From positions 1-64,000 of the forward strand of contig CAMQYS010000002.1 of the NCBI GenBank assembly GCA_947039395.1: a stretch of 64,000 nt of DNA, written 5' to 3'. Positions 2,525 to 10,208 of this stretch are shown here, in pieces. The first letter of the stretch is position 1. Each line of letters begins with the position of its first letter. This DNA is from an uncultured Deferribacteraceae bacterium. Its GTDB lineage: Bacteria; Chrysiogenota; Deferribacteres; Deferribacterales; Mucispirillaceae. The translations under genes were made by a program, and so were the position numbers. The notes under the pieces were generated by a model that worked only from the letters and a program-made list of their open reading frames with translations, did no database searches and had not been told where the DNA came from.

Positions 2525-5500
2525 TTACTCTACTACAAAATCCATTTTTTCTGCTAACTGTTTAGTGTATGAGTTTCTACGTTTCTGTTTCAACGAAGCC
2601 TCTTCTACTATTTCAGCAAACTTATCTGGATCAGCTTTCTTAGTAATCTTAAATCTGTTCTCCATAGACATAAACTCAGCAAGCTCTATAGTCGCATCTT
2701 TACTATCAACAATAAGTGGATTTTTACCTTCACTTACTAAATCAGGGTTATATCTGATTAACTGCCAATAACCTGCCTCAATAGCTTTCTTCTGATGATC
2801 AACACCGTACGTCATATCTAAACCTTGTGCGATACAATGAGAGTATGCAATTATTAACGAAGGTCCATTATACGCTTCTGCCTCAATAAATGCTTTTAAA
2901 CATTGTGCAGGGTTCGCTAATGAAACTCTTGCAACATATATAGATCCGTATGTCATAGCGATCATAGCTAGATCTTTCTTCTCTTGCATTTTACCCGATG
3001 TTGCAAACTTAGCCGTTGCACCAAGTGGTGTAGATTTTGACGCTTGTCCACCAGTGTTAGAGTAAACCTCTGTATCTAATACTAAAATATTAAGGTTCTC
3101 TCCTGATGCAAGTACGTGATCTAATCCACCGTAACCTATATCGTAAGCCCAACCATCTCCTCCCATCATCCACGTAGATTTTGGAAGTAAGAAATCTGCC
3201 ATAGATAAGAAATCTTTAGCCTCTTCTGTTTTAATACCTTCAAGTTTAGTTTTTAACTCTTTAACTAATACACGTTTAAGCTCTATCTCATTTTGAGTTT
3301 TTGAAGGAGCTTCACTTATCTTACCGTATAAATCACCGATTTCACCTTTAAACTTCTCAAGATAATCGTTCGCTTTACCAGTGAAATAATTTACAGTCAT
3401 CTTCATTCCATAACCGTACTCAGCGTTATTCTCAAATAATGAGTTACCCCAAGCTGGACCTAAACCATCTGATCTATCGCAATATGGAGTAGTTGGAAGG
3501 TTACCACCGTAAATAGATGAACAACCTGTTGCGTTTGCTAGATATAATCTATCTCCAAATAGTTGTGTTAATACTTTAATGTATGGAGTCTCTCCGCAAC
3601 CTGCACAAGCACCAGAATATTCAAAACCGTATGGAGCAAACTGAAGCCCTTTAATAGTTGCTTTATTATATTGATCTGGTGCTAATTCTGGAAGGTCTAG
3701 GAAGAATTTATAATTTTCTACTTCACTATCTCTAATAGGCATCTGCGGACGCATATTAATAGCTTTTAAATTAGGATCTGTTTTGCTAACTGCTGGACAG
3801 TTGATTACACATACCGAACAATCAACACAATCTTCAGGTGCAACTTGAACTGTGAAAGCGTAATCTTCAAACCCTTTACCTTTTGCTTGAACATGTTTAA
3901 ATGTTGAAGGTGCTTTATCTAACTCACTCTTAGGATATGATGCAACACGTATTGCAGAGTGAGGACAATGGAATGCACATAATCCACATTGAATACAAAT
4001 ATCTGACTCCCATACAGGTATCTCAACAGCTAGATTTCTCTTCTCATACTGCGTTGTAGCTATAGGCCAAGTACCATCTGCTGGTAACTGTGATACAGTT
4101 ATTTGTTCACCTTCATTAGCAACTAGCTTAGATGTAACCTCTTGTACGAAACTAGGTGCTGATGGATCTAGACAACCATTAATTAAATCTAATTGAATAT
4201 AAGGTACATGTCCTTCTTTAGATGGAGTATCAACTCTACCTGGATATATTACCTCTTCAAACTTAGTAGCACCGTATTCAGCTGCATTATTGTTCATAGT
4301 AACTACGTTATCTCCGTATTTACCATAAGACTTTTTATTAGCTTTCTTAATAGCTTCTAACACTTTATCAACAGGGATAATTTTAGAAATAGCAAAGAAT
4401 GCTGTTTGCAATATAACGTTATATCTGCTACCTAAACCAAGTTCTTTAGCAATTGCTATTGCATCTATTACATAAAATCTTGCTTCTCTTGCAATAATTT
4501 GTTCTCTAATATAAGAAGGTAAGTTATCCCAAACCTCTGTTGCAGAGTATGGACTATTTAATAAAAAATTACCACCCTTATTAAGAGGGCCTAAAACATC
4601 AAACCTTTCAAGGAAAAAGAAGTTATGACACGCTAGGAAATCTGCATGCTCTACTAAGTATGAGCTTTTAATTGCTTTATCACCAAAACGTAAATGTGAT
4701 GTTGTAACTGATCCTGCTTTCTTAGAATCATAAACAAAATATGCTTGAACTTCTTTACCTGCTTCTGTATTAATAATCTTAGCTGTGTTCTTATTAGCAC
4801 CAACAGTTCCATCTGATCCTAAACCGATAAATATAGCTTCAAATGTTTCAGGTGTAGATATATGCCATGAGTAATCAACCTCTAATGAAAGATTGGTAAC
4901 ATCATCTATTATACCAACAGTAAATGAATTTTTAGGAGCTTTTGACAATAAGTTATCGTAAACTGCTTTAACCATTGCTGGAGTATAATCTTTCGATCCA
5001 AGTCCATATCTACCACCAACTATAAGAGGATAATCTTTAAAATCTACCATCTTCTTACACATAATTTCGCCAACTGCTGTTCTAATAGTTAAATATAAAG
5101 GCTCTCCTATTGCTCCAGGTTCTTTTGTTCTATCAAGAACTGCGATACCTTTAACTGTTTTAGGTAGAATTTTTGCAAACGTTTCAACATCAAATGGTTG
5201 GAATAATCTAACTTTTATCACACCAGTCTTATAACCAGATTTATTTAATACTATTGAAGTTTCTTCAGAAATATCACCTGCAGAACATAATATTATTATT
5301 ACCTGCTCTGCATTAGGATCTCCAACATACTCCATCGTGTCGTAATATCTACCCGTTAAATCACCAAACTTCTTGAACTCTTCCTTCAATGTAGGGATAA
5401 TTTTATCAAAATATGAATTAACTGTCTCTCTTCCTTGAAAGTATACGTCAGGGTTTTGAGCAGTACCACGCATTGATGGATGATCTGGAGATAGACTTCT

Positions 5501-6448: not shown

Positions 6449-7240
6449 ATGTTTATGTATTTTATAAAATTTGTAGAAAATATCGGTAAATGGACAGTAA
6501 ATATAATCCTATTTTTTACTGGAATAGTAATTTTTACTATAAAAATATTTATCGCAGGGCTATTCTCTAAAGCTTTCCTAAACCCAGTATCTGTAACTTT
6601 TATATTAAGACAAATCAACTTTATCGGTGTAGAATTAATTAAAACTACAACTATTGTTGCAATGATACTTGGCCTAGCAATAGTTGGAACATTAAGTAAT
6701 ATATTAATAAATTTAGGAGCTACAACATCAATAGGTGTTGCACTTACTGGAATTCTTGTAAAAATAGCCGCTCCTTTTATAACAGGGCTACTATTTATTT
6801 TTAGAGCCGCAAGTGCTATATTTATAGATATTGCACTTATGAAAAGTAATAATGATTTTAAAACTTTACAATCAATGGATATTGATGAATATCAAATGGT
6901 ATTCTTTCCAAGAGTTATTGCATCTATTATATCTATGTTTATTCTATCTAGCTACTTCATACTTCTATCTATTATAGGTAGCTTTACATTACTATCTTTT
7001 CAATTAAATACAACCTTATCAGTTGTAGGACAACAAGTTGTATCAGCGTTACAAGTAAGTGATGTGATATCATTTATATTTCAAATATTTTTCATAGGGC
7101 TAATAGTTGCCATCATACCGATGTATACTGCAATGGAACAGAAACGATCTCAACTTTGGATTATTGTATCAATGAATAAAAGTATGTTAAGATTGTTCTA
7201 CCTGTTTATTCTAATTGTTTTTATAGGACAATTAATATGA
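6449..7240 (+). CDS. mlaE: MlaE-type lipid ABC transporter permease
   Basis: This 263-residue membrane protein matches the MlaE permease family, which moves phospholipids between inner and outer membrane in the MlaFEDB system. It has about five or six hydrophobic segments and the family's N-terminal amphipathic stretch (residues 1-40). The central segment with ILVKIAAPFITGLLFIFRAA and MKSNNDFKTLQSMDIDEYQM corresponds to the conserved MlaE R-x-G...E-ID-MK...EA-LDAL region, but degenerately. No clear ribosome binding site precedes the ATG. The stop overlaps the next ATG by four bases (ATGA), so translation is coupled. It is the first gene of a five-gene operon (6449-10208). The family call is firm; the retained activity is uncertain because the partner ATPase is degenerate. 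Confidence 0.85.
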   Translation: MFMYFIKFVENIGKWTVNIILFFTGIVIFTIKIFIAGLFSKAFLNPVSVTFILRQINFIGVELIKTTTIVAMILGLAIVGTLSNILINLGATTSIGVALTGILVKIAAPFITGLLFIFRAASAIFIDIALMKSNNDFKTLQSMDIDEYQMVFFPRVIASIISMFILSSYFILLSIIGSFTLLSFQLNTTLSVVGQQVVSALQVSDVISFIFQIFFIGLIVAIIPMYTAMEQKRSQLWIIVSMNKSMLRLFYLFILIVFIGQLI

Positions 7241-7770
7241 CAAAAAATAAAGCCATGACAACATTTTTAGAAACTACTCACGAGACTAAAAATATAGTGA
7301 GCGATCTGATTGAAAAATATAGCTGGGGGAAAGTATCTGTAGTAACCGAAGAAATACCTCTTATGAGTGCATTAACTGTGCTAGATAATATCGTATTATA
7401 CAAGTGTTACTCTAAAAGATTATCTATCTCTAAAGTAGAAAATGAAGTAATTGAGTTTTTAAATAGATATAATGAACCAAATATCATATACTCTCATAAA
7501 GGGCAATTAAATAAGTATCAACATTTTATTGCAAAACTTGCTAGAGCAACTATACATAAACCTGATATAATAGTTATATGTATGCCTGTTGATTATCTAG
7601 GTATTGAAAATTTTAACTTATTTATTGATATTATAAAAGAAAGCAATACAGATCTTGAAAATATTATGATATTAGAAAATATTAGATTCTCTAACTTGTA
7701 CGATAACCTTGATATAAATAAAGTAGGAATTAACGAATGGCTGACCCACGTTATAAAAATATTGAACTAA
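7237..7770 (+). CDS. Degenerate ABC ATPase-like protein at the MlaF position
   Basis: This 177-residue protein lies where mlaF belongs, between mlaE and mlaD, overlapping both (4 and 34 bases). Residues about 32-60 (VTEEIPLMSALTVLDNIVLY) align with the post-Walker-A region of MlaF (FQ..ALF..LTV.EN). Residues about 85-125 (GQLNKYQHFIAKLARATIHK, PDIIVICMP) align with LSGGQ...RVALARA...P.ILLLDEP. The N-terminal Walker A half is absent, the Q-loop Gln is Glu, the signature is LNKYQ, Walker B has CMP for DEP, and no switch His is seen. It cannot bind or split ATP in the usual way. It may be a structural pseudo-ATPase or a decaying gene kept by overlapping frames. The homology is my reading by eye. 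Confidence 0.65.
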   Translation: MTKNKAMTTFLETTHETKNIVSDLIEKYSWGKVSVVTEEIPLMSALTVLDNIVLYKCYSKRLSISKVENEVIEFLNRYNEPNIIYSHKGQLNKYQHFIAKLARATIHKPDIIVICMPVDYLGIENFNLFIDIIKESNTDLENIMILENIRFSNLYDNLDINKVGINEWLTHVIKILN

Positions 7771-8531
7771 AAGTAGGCTTCTTTATTCTATTTGCAATAG
7801 TATCAATCACATCTTTAGTGGTGACTGTTGGAATTGATAAAGGAATTTTTACTGCTAAATTAAGTGTGTTTGTATACTCAAACACTGGTGAAGGTATCAA
7901 TCAAGGTATGCCTGTCAATTATGCTGGGTTTCAAATATCTAGAGTTGATGATATTAAACTACTTGATGATGGACGCGTACAGATGAGAATAAAAATACCA
8001 GAAACTTATAATAGATGGATAAAAACAACCTCTGATTTTAGACTCGGTACATTAAATATTTTAAGTTCACCTGTGATAAATGTATCCACCGATCTTGCTA
8101 GAGTTTCTCCTCTTGTTAAAGATGGTGATGAATTCTACTTAACAAGAGACACAAGAATTAATGAAGTTATTGAAGCAGCGTTGCCTATTGTTAACGATCT
8201 TAAAGAAATTATCGCATCTGCAAACATTATTATCAAAAACTTTGCACTTGAAGATAGTGATTTTAATATGTTAATGAAAGCAGCTGGAGTTCTAGGGGAA
8301 AGCCTTCAAGCAAACGGTGATACAATAATCAACGAAACAATGCTTGCTATTACAAATATAAAAAATATATTATCAAATCTTAGCCCTGCAACTAAAGAAT
8401 CTTCTGAAATAGCTGAAGAACTTAGGTCTACTATTGACAACCTAAATATACTCATCTTAAAACTTCAAGATACATGGCCTCTTAGAGGTAATGGCCCTAC
8501 TAATCAAAATGGAGAGGTAAATCTTAAATGA
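7737..8531 (+). CDS. mlaD: MCE-domain lipid transport protein, MlaD-like
   Basis: This 264-residue protein has an N-terminal membrane anchor (residues about 12-33) followed by an MCE domain (about 38-120) with the typical NTGEGINQGMPVNYAGFQIS pattern and a V..I.L...G.V...I.I progression. A helical C-terminal region rich in Asn and Leu (about 150-250) follows. MlaD-type proteins form periplasmic hexamers that carry phospholipid between membranes. The ATG at 7737 overlaps the end of the preceding gene by 34 bases and has AGGA 8 bases upstream. The stop overlaps the next ATG by four bases. The MCE assignment is firm; direction of transport is unknown. Confidence 0.9.
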   Translation: MADPRYKNIELKVGFFILFAIVSITSLVVTVGIDKGIFTAKLSVFVYSNTGEGINQGMPVNYAGFQISRVDDIKLLDDGRVQMRIKIPETYNRWIKTTSDFRLGTLNILSSPVINVSTDLARVSPLVKDGDEFYLTRDTRINEVIEAALPIVNDLKEIIASANIIIKNFALEDSDFNMLMKAAGVLGESLQANGDTIINETMLAITNIKNILSNLSPATKESSEIAEELRSTIDNLNILILKLQDTWPLRGNGPTNQNGEVNLK

Positions 8532-9277
8532 TAAAAAAAATATTTATTATTTTTATTATAACTATATCCTCTACATTAATATCTGCTTGTGGATCTAAAA
8601 GTAACGGTGTGTCATATGAAAATTACAGAGGATTGAAAAATCTTGATAACTCATTAAATTATCTATTAAACGGATCAAACAACGCTGCGATGAATAGCTA
8701 TAATAGAGCTGTTGATATATTTATTAGAGTTAATGATTTCTGTAACGCTGCTAAAGCTGGAATTTTTCTATACACTGCTGAACCTATCTCTGAAAATATA
8801 CACTTTCTAAAAGATGCTGAAAATTACTCTCATCTTGGCAAATGCAATAACGAACTACTGATAATAAGCCTACTGCTTGATATAGATGATAACAAAACAA
8901 TTAATATAGATGATTATATTAATCTTGATGAACCGTTCTTATCTTTCGCAGAAGCGTATCACAATAAATCTATTGAACCAATTAAAGTACTGATCGATCA
9001 GAAAGATACATCAAATAGATTGAAATCTGTTCTTTACAGAAAGCTTACAGAGCATTACATTAATATAAAGAGTGATGAGGCTTTAAGTCTTGCAAATATT
9101 ATGATAGAAAATGCTTTAAAAATAGATCAATCAAACAGTTGGTTAAAAAATATATTGTACGATGAAAAATTGAAATTGAAATTGATGCAAACCCAAAAAA
9201 CAAATACTGATACACAAATAAAAAAAATTGATATCTTATCAGAGAAAATTAACGTGGTGAAAGAGATAGATGAATAG
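8528..9277 (+). CDS. Lipoprotein of the Mla-like operon
   Basis: This 249-residue protein begins with a lipoprotein signal (lipobox LISAC, Cys at residue 21), so it should be lipid-anchored in the periplasm. The mature part is almost entirely helical, with repeated short amphipathic helices containing Asn, Ala and Tyr that look like a TPR/SEL-type solenoid (for example ALSLANIMIENALKIDQSN near residues 195-215). GGAGAGG lies before the ATG. It overlaps mlaD by four bases and the next gene by eight, so it belongs to the operon. I do not recognise a family. A role as an outer-membrane or periplasmic partner of the MCE system, in the place of MlaA or PqiC-like lipoproteins, is inference. Confidence 0.7.
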   Translation: MIKKIFIIFIITISSTLISACGSKSNGVSYENYRGLKNLDNSLNYLLNGSNNAAMNSYNRAVDIFIRVNDFCNAAKAGIFLYTAEPISENIHFLKDAENYSHLGKCNNELLIISLLLDIDDNKTINIDDYINLDEPFLSFAEAYHNKSIEPIKVLIDQKDTSNRLKSVLYRKLTEHYINIKSDEALSLANIMIENALKIDQSNSWLKNILYDEKLKLKLMQTQKTNTDTQIKKIDILSEKINVVKEIDE

Positions 9278-10208
9278 AAAACTATCCTACATTATTACAA
9301 TCCTGTTATCACTTACACTTATGAACTGTGTAGGAAATTTTGATCTTGATAATGTAACTGATGCTTATGAAAAGTTCGGATATTACTCTGATTATACAGG
9401 TGCCGTCAACGAAGCTCAACTACCTACTCAAGCCGATCTTGAAATCATCGCAACAACTATTAGAGAGGTGATAAATACCGCTAACGCAATCTCGTTAAAC
9501 CTTACATATTCATTAACTCCTGCAATATTGTTTGATAATATTAGTAATATTTACGGGATAGATGTGAGAGATAATAGTACATGTTTTATAAACGGAAGCA
9601 ATACTATCACAGACAATTCCACTTATAGAGAGTATCCTGAGTTTGACATAAATAAAGTTAAAGATAAATTCCTTGAAAATGATCAGATAAAGTACACAAA
9701 CTACTGTAGACAAAATACTCTAAACGGAGACGCTTCAGAACAAAAAGCAACTCTTAACGGTTACCCTGTTGAAAGCAGAAGCACAGCTGATAATAATACA
9801 TTAGTTTTCTATATGCGGTTTGATGAGAATGCTAGCAATCTAAAGGCAACTATTGTTGATGATTTTAGTGAGTTTGGTGGTGTCTATAATTTATTCGGTA
9901 TCATCGATAAAACATCAGCACTTGATGGTATCGCTAATACTAAATATAGATTAGGACTTGACATACAGATAGATGGAGAGGTGGGTAGGTTTGATCTAAA
10001 CTATACTAGAAGTAGTCAAAATAGAGTACTTACATTTTATCATCCAACGTTCGGATATGTAACGTCTGATATATCTAGCATAACCTCTAAAATTAAAGAT
10101 GATGAAACTTATATAACTTTTAAATATTCTGGAAATGAGTGTAGATTTAGGTTCTCTGATATCGCTAACGAGCCTTTAGAATTTAGAGAGAATTGTCCGA
10201 AAAATTAA
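9270..10208 (+). CDS. Lipoprotein of the Mla-like operon, unknown family
   Basis: This 312-residue protein has a lipoprotein signal with LMNC as the lipobox (Cys at residue 20). The mature protein is polar and predicted largely beta, with several isolated Cys residues (for example STCFING, YTNYCRQNTL, GNECRFRFSD, FRENCPKN) that could form periplasmic disulfides. It is the last gene of the 6449-10208 operon and overlaps its predecessor by eight bases. I do not recognise a family. A beta-rich lipoprotein at the end of an MCE operon could act at the outer membrane in lipid hand-off, which is inference. Confidence 0.65.
   Translation: MNRKLSYIITILLSLTLMNCVGNFDLDNVTDAYEKFGYYSDYTGAVNEAQLPTQADLEIIATTIREVINTANAISLNLTYSLTPAILFDNISNIYGIDVRDNSTCFINGSNTITDNSTYREYPEFDINKVKDKFLENDQIKYTNYCRQNTLNGDASEQKATLNGYPVESRSTADNNTLVFYMRFDENASNLKATIVDDFSEFGGVYNLFGIIDKTSALDGIANTKYRLGLDIQIDGEVGRFDLNYTRSSQNRVLTFYHPTFGYVTSDISSITSKIKDDETYITFKYSGNECRFRFSDIANEPLEFRENCPKN

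Follow-up and report, generated by a model that had tools for sequence, protein, structure and literature searches.

A conserved pseudo-ATPase in the MlaF slot of a divergent MCE operon suggests a lipid conduit without its own ATP motor

How can an Mla-type operon serve lipid transport when the protein in the place of its ATPase has none of the expected catalytic motifs? The question is raised by a 64,000-nucleotide stretch of DNA (the window), in which a gene that we call psF sits between mlaE and mlaD of an MCE operon, the position of MlaF. As the earlier note had described, this gene encodes a 177-residue protein and overlaps both of its neighbours. The overlaps measure 4 nt with the end of mlaE (ATGA) and 34 nt with the start of mlaD. 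The genes of the operon, with the evidence for each, are:

6449-7240, + strand: MlaE2, a divergent MlaE-family permease of 263 aa (PF02405, E = 4.7e-30; tree)
7237-7770, + strand: psF, a degenerate ABC ATPase in the MlaF slot, 177 aa (motifs, family profile, AF2/Foldseek, dN/dS)
7737-8531, + strand: MlaD2, an MCE-domain protein of 264 aa with a TM anchor and C-terminal helices (PF02470, E = 2.1e-9)
8528-9277, + strand: lp1, a lipoprotein of 249 aa (alignment of homologs, AF2, weak TPR matches)
9270-10208, + strand: lp2, a conserved protein of 312 aa with an N-terminal lipobox-like LMNC (sequence)

Both flanking proteins scored above their Pfam cut-offs, MlaE2 with 105 bits to PF02405 (cut-off 22.5), its coupling helix being present and altered, and MlaD2 with 37.9 bits to PF02470 (cut-off 25.1). 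Profile matches of MlaD2 in the PDB were YebT/LetB, Mce1, and MlaD, and the protein measures 264 aa in the window versus about 340 aa in most relatives. The AF2 model of lp1 (pLDDT 91) is all-helical and TPR-like, with weak TPR matches, and an alignment of 20 homologs showed the lipobox Cys21 together with two further invariant cysteines, Cys72 and Cys106. This second pair could form a disulfide in what is a TPR-like periplasmic lipoprotein family barely recognised by Pfam. Homology of lp1 to PqiC/MpcA was considered and rejected, as no PqiC-type match appeared in Pfam or the PDB. No Pfam match was obtained for lp2, which occurs in the window's own family only, and no MlaB was found next to the operon.

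A single-sequence Pfam scan gave no ABC family match for the window's psF, and phmmer with the same single sequence against the PDB returned a weak ABC match (9e-4). We therefore relied on an alignment and profile of 30 psF homologs from the window's phylum. Searched against the PDB, this profile retrieved 41 sequences at E ≤ 0.01, every one of them an ABC ATPase, with a best value of 4.7e-10 and matches spanning residues ~23-145. The best hits were YtrE/MacB, and psF itself is too diverged to show a closest kinship with MlaF. Against genomes, full-length ABC-ATPase-like frames scored up to 2.7e-17 with the same profile, while PF00005 detected only 2 of the 30 family members. The AF2 model of psF (pLDDT 90.3, pTM 0.87) gave top Foldseek matches that were all ABC ATPases or NBDs, including MceG of Mce1 (8fed; TMq 0.73, rmsd 2.8) and E. 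coli MlaF (6xbd; TMq 0.68). A chance resemblance is ruled out by these profile and fold searches, and judged by homology and by its predicted core fold, psF is a genuine member of the ABC ATPase (NBD) superfamily. It is almost certainly an ABC-derived pseudo-NBD occupying the MlaF slot.

The model also indicates which parts of the domain have been retained. Its secondary structure runs from a strand (7-11) through a turn into a helix (14-27), followed by a strand (33-36), a helical subdomain, and two further strands (111-115 and 143-148). The P-loop strand and P-loop helix would thus be kept, whereas the P-loop itself and the antiparallel ABC-beta subdomain seem to have been deleted; the absence of the latter is read from helix 14-27 leading directly into strand 33-36 before the Q-loop region. 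The helical subdomain, the Walker-B strand, and the strand that follows are likewise predicted to persist, minus their motifs. The claim that psF aligns with the second half of MlaF thus stood as regards the ABC relation, which profile and structure searches both recovered, but not as regards its extent, since an N-terminal P-loop strand and helix are present in the AF2 model. Residues 1-31 are the least conserved part of the protein, and the reading of their fold rests on a single prediction.

The positions at which an ABC ATPase would carry its catalytic residues were located in the window as follows:

7270-7275, + strand: P-loop position, a short ET turn (residues 12-13) that joins strand 7-11 to helix 14-27 (AF2 secondary structure, poorly conserved columns)
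7342-7416, + strand: most conserved segment, residues 36-60, consensus V....PLI.NLSV.ENI.LP..Y (conservation)
7507-7521, + strand: signature position, LNKYQ instead of LSGGQ, family form L[NSD]x[FY][EQ] (sequence, family alignment)
7579-7587, + strand: Walker B / catalytic Glu position, CMP instead of DEP (sequence, family alignment)
7675-7680, + strand: switch-His position, EN, with an acidic E/D conserved in the family (family alignment)

Every motif replacement that the earlier note had listed, namely the missing Walker A, LNKYQ, CMP for DEP, and the missing switch His, is as it had been described, and the family extends the picture. Walker A (GxxGxGK[ST]) is absent in all members, its position being a short variable turn; the Walker B Asp-Glu pair is not conserved across the 30 aligned proteins; His occupies the switch position in 11 of 30; and the Q-loop Gln has been lost in the window's psF. 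By motif analysis, psF would therefore fall short of a catalytically competent ABC ATPase at every point. Conservation among the 30 members instead peaks at residues 32-60 and 89-107 and is low at the P-loop position. The segment at residues 36-60, after the Q-loop, is what we take to be the face turned toward the permease coupling helix in ABC NBDs. The signature region appears to have been re-invented in a highly conserved form, L[NSD]x[FY][EQ], and Trp168 is invariant, with a conserved acidic residue at position 147. In E. coli, ATP hydrolysis by MlaF is essential to Mla, and the K47A and E170Q variants of MlaF (Walker A Lys and Walker B Glu) do not complement (PMC7367683); psF unassisted therefore cannot power transport in the known way.

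Such a protein might also be what remains of an ordinary mlaF that was lately frameshifted or truncated, or misassembled. In favour of this stand the length of psF, only two thirds of that of MlaF, and an in-frame TAG within the psF of one relative. We compared this expectation with the distribution of the gene. In Deferribacterota, the phylum of the window's genome, 38 of the 51 genomes have psF, and the fetched orthologs measure 162-180 aa, one truncated copy excepted. The shrunken subunit has thus been retained throughout an entire bacterial order. A scan of genome contigs with the window's psF as a single protein found same-genus MAGs only. In the survey of related genomes, which had been proposed earlier, homologs in close and distant relatives alike are all short and without Walker A, so psF is not a recent frame loss. 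The gene order mlaE2-psF-mlaD2-lp1 holds in the fetched psF loci, the window included, and the overlaps of psF in the 14 loci measured are 4 nt and 28-40 nt. Among four genomes of the same genus, dN/dS was 0.10-0.19 for psF (the overlapping neighbour frames touch its ends only), 0.03-0.06 for mlaE2, 0.04-0.07 for mlaD2, and 0.18-0.25 for lp1. The coding constraint suggested earlier from the overlaps is thus borne out both by their conservation and by a psF dN/dS well below 1. A missing N-terminal half of MlaF in another upstream frame was also considered, but there is no room for it: mlaE occupies the region and the psF frame opens just 19 codons upstream, within mlaE (open frame 196 aa). With the short form present in 38 genomes and in a second phylum besides, recent frame loss is refuted by the survey and the dN/dS values, and an artefact of this kind is vanishingly improbable.

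psF was found in all 38 genomes that have a second, divergent MlaE (MlaE2) and in none of the 13 without it, a co-occurrence that amounts to co-inheritance rather than 38 independent events because the two genes are neighbours. The gene is an ancient one that purifying selection maintains, and it does not occur apart from MlaE2.

Three loci of relatives deserve mention in their own right. At L049 (genome G042, 3378-3806) the in-frame TAG of psF falls at the switch-strand position, where relatives have Glu, and leaves 142 of ~172 aa, by truncation or sequencing error. At L032 and L033 (G046 and G047, 1.3 Mb genomes of the same class), MlaE2 has diverged to an extreme degree, with an end branch of 5.27 and a PF02405 score of 35-40 bits, and psF and MlaD2 stay recognisable despite this divergence.

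If psF does not hydrolyse ATP, the permease might obtain an ATPase from elsewhere. All 38 psF genomes carry another, canonical MlaE, and another MlaE was present in every checked genome with a dead NBD; an intact MlaF adjoins it in the window's genome and in five others. The search for another mlaF in the window's genome accordingly turned up a complete canonical mlaEFD on contig C18 (L057, 5501-8640), with an intact MlaF and a 514-aa MlaD of the long type. Given these second copies, trans-complementation of the psF system could take place: MlaE2 would borrow the active MlaF of the canonical MlaEFD, and psF would be an assembly factor or an exchangeable placeholder. The single-MlaE case points the same way, in that G353, the sole checked genome of the subfamily with one MlaE, has a near-intact NBD in that operon, and for these two reasons borrowing is the main rival to our reading. 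A precedent also exists in mycobacteria, where MceG is common to Mce1 and Mce4 (PMC9947336). We nevertheless consider borrowing unlikely. Selection retains a dedicated protein of the NBD fold in the MlaF slot, and this protein would be a competitor for that site; in addition, the EExDA-type motif by which the coupling helix touches active ATPases is altered in the MlaE2 group.

This alteration was examined in an alignment of 33 canonical and 38 pseudo-NBD-linked MlaE proteins, the role of the coupling helix in MlaE being taken from PMC7790496. The corresponding segment of the window is:

6821-6889, + strand: MlaE2 coupling-helix segment, ~residues 125-147, IDIALMKSNNDFKTLQSMDID, with the canonical TEQxDAL replaced (alignment of the 33 and 38 proteins)

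The canonical helix reads G.M..TEQ.DAL, with G, D, and A in 33 of 33 sequences, and its Q position is occupied by either Q or E. In the pseudo-NBD-linked permeases M, E, and L are kept, whereas D and A are no longer fixed; E stands at the Q position in 35 of 38 and N at the T position in 25 of 38. The helix thus appears to have changed in step with its NBD partner, from TEQxDAL to NxExxxL. A coupling helix that is kept but re-tuned would fit docking on a non-standard NBD, and would fit the borrowing of a canonical MlaF less well, although the retained M, E, and L positions could fit an active NBD too. Between the two mechanisms originally put forward, an ATP-independent bridge and a borrowed ATPase, we infer that the former is favoured, with the coupling-helix motif altered group-wide and a dedicated psF kept under selection.

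Another way of retaining ATP would be an asymmetric arrangement, in which psF and an active MlaF form a mixed NBD pair on the MlaE2 dimer, or psF locks the transporter in the manner of a dominant regulator. Heterodimeric ABC transporters with one degenerate site are known (PMC7756269), and the signature position of psF is conserved in its new form, so that surface of the protein is still used. The known degenerate-site ABC proteins are milder than psF, however, which cannot complete either composite site because its ABC-beta subdomain and P-loop are missing; moreover, each operon has one MlaE2 gene, so a symmetric dimer is expected. We regard a mixed or regulatory pairing as rather improbable. 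The new conserved features that lie off the catalytic motifs (the invariant Trp and the acidic residue) might instead indicate that psF has left transport for some other task in the cytoplasm and owes its place in the operon to history alone. In two phyla, however, psF strictly co-occurs with mlaE2 and is translationally coupled to it, and its permease-facing segment is strongly conserved, which makes such a departure very improbable.

We consider it somewhat more probable than not that psF is a structural or gating subunit docked on MlaE2, in a system that needs no ATP hydrolysis in cis. The operon would then encode a specialised MCE (Mla-like) lipid conduit with a dedicated pseudoenzyme derived from its ABC ATPase. 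If the complex is built like MlaE2F2D6, a pair of MlaE2 permeases would carry the MlaD2 ring, whose helical tail may reach the TPR-like lipoprotein lp1 in the direction of the outer membrane. On the cytoplasmic side, two psF molecules would dock on the MlaE2 coupling helices, and the pair would stabilise the permease dimer or control its gating, with neither binding nor hydrolysis of ATP. Lipid might pass through the conduit down its own gradient or by another energy source, like in the ATPase-less Pqi and Let MCE systems. The docking of psF on MlaE2, the stoichiometry, the independence from ATP, and the lipid cargo are all presumptive elements of this scheme.

Compared to characterised systems, the psF operon resembles MlaFEDB (Mla) in uniting MlaE and MlaD families with an NBD-like gene, the protein in the F slot having an ABC-NBD fold and a relative without Walker A (L123) being nearest to MlaF; it differs from it in that psF has no catalytic motif at all, its ABC-beta subdomain is deleted, and no MlaB is adjacent. 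The nearest characterised gene order is that of mpcEFDA of Brucella, the Mpc system of Brucella and other Hyphomicrobiales, which likewise runs from permease through NBD and an MCE protein with a helical needle to a lipoprotein; there MpcF is a conserved MlaF-like ABC ATPase, MpcE has a STAS domain, and MpcA is PqiC-like (PMC12436622). An active MpcF, a STAS domain on MpcE, and a PqiC-like MpcA have no counterpart in the psF operon, in which the NBD is dead, MlaE2 (263 aa) has the MlaE domain only, and lp1 is TPR-like. The minimal trans-envelope MlaEFD system of the Veillonella parvula type shares with it a three-component core without MlaA/MlaC (PMC10665443), but its MlaF is normal and its MlaD is of a long beta-barrel kind. 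The long-MlaD operon on contig C18 is of this type; next to it, the psF operon is a second, paralogous one, in which MlaD2 is shorter and helical and a lipoprotein is included. PqiABC and LetAB differ from the psF operon in having no NBD-like subunit. PqiA and LetA are also a different kind of membrane protein from MlaE. Their likeness lies in MCE tunnels that function without an ABC ATPase (PMC12436622). Mycobacterial Mce1 with MceG, finally, has MlaE-like permeases, and few structures match psF as well as MceG does; unlike psF, MceG is an active ATPase common to several systems (PMC9947336).

The wider search covered a sample of 385 genomes, in which one match led to a second phylum, and 28 genomes of this phylum were then searched. 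In the inspected loci, mlaE2-psF with mlaD2 and lp1 occurs in several genera, the psF proteins being ~130-170 aa long and mostly having DRPF where DEP is expected. When the MlaE loci of the 385 genomes were ranked with a profile built from the MlaE2 proteins of these loci, the psF-linked permeases among the matches listed scored at least 280 bits and the next best MlaE 185. We examined 60 high-ranked MlaE loci outside the two phyla and found an adjacent NBD at 55 of them. At 18 loci, from 15 families, this NBD was catalytically dead, 12 lacking Walker A and 6 having Walker A but no catalytic Glu; both Walker A and the catalytic Glu were present in the 37 others. These counts (18 of 60 loci) are not estimates of prevalence because the sample was picked by similarity. 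One of the NBDs, that of L123, has 218 aa, lacks Walker A, and still has the beta subdomain in the alignment; its closest PDB entries are MlaF proteins (8.5e-21) and MceG, which supports an MlaF origin beyond what the diverged psF shows by itself.

A maximum-likelihood tree of 76 MlaE proteins separated 41 members of the MlaE2 subfamily from 35 canonical permeases by a branch with 100/100 support. None of the canonical permeases is linked to a dead NBD, and every permease linked to psF or to a degenerate NBD falls on the MlaE2 side, together with the near-intact L125 and L131, whose NBDs lack the switch His only. Permeases with psF group together across the two phyla (100/99), which makes a single origin of the extreme shrinkage probable. 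Resolution is weak at the deepest intermediate branches, those of the less eroded lines, and some branches of the tree are long. Grouping the dead-NBD permeases in a clade without L125 and L131 was rejected at the borderline (AU p = 0.0495); erosion therefore probably occurred repeatedly, unless this part of the tree lacks resolution.

psF is a real, conserved, and extreme case of a wider erosion series, with eroded NBDs in related systems of at least fifteen other bacterial families. We lean, if only slightly, toward the view that the MlaF ATPase of a divergent MlaE subfamily, one that occurs across many families and phyla of bacteria, has been turned into a structural pseudoenzyme, yielding ABC-derived MCE conduits without ATP hydrolysis in cis, with all stages of erosion visible from a near-intact NBD (only the switch His missing) to a remnant of 130-180 aa without P-loop and ABC-beta subdomain. 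Our literature search found no description of this family of pseudo-NBD-linked MCE operons, which may have been overlooked because Pfam fails to call most members. The energy source and the direction of lipid flow through MCE bridges are a long-standing open question. Here the hydrolysis machinery has been lost repeatedly in nature, yet selection has preserved the NBD body along with the permease and the bridge, and the sequences suggest a lipid conduit between two membranes that would run without its own ATP motor. With two paralogous systems in one cell, the role of ATP becomes directly testable by comparison.

Two variants were seen among the loci of the wider search. In genus g113 of the second phylum (L090, L106, L108, L110, and L113), mlaE2-psF is a two-gene unit alongside which mlaD2 and lp1 were not detected, and its MCE partner must be elsewhere or gone. 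Outside the two phyla, the NBDs of L128 and L133 (both f27), L119, L120, L127, and L137 have a perfect or near-perfect Walker A with no catalytic Glu and no switch His (WDNP, for example), and from these motifs they may be intermediates that bind ATP and do not hydrolyse it.
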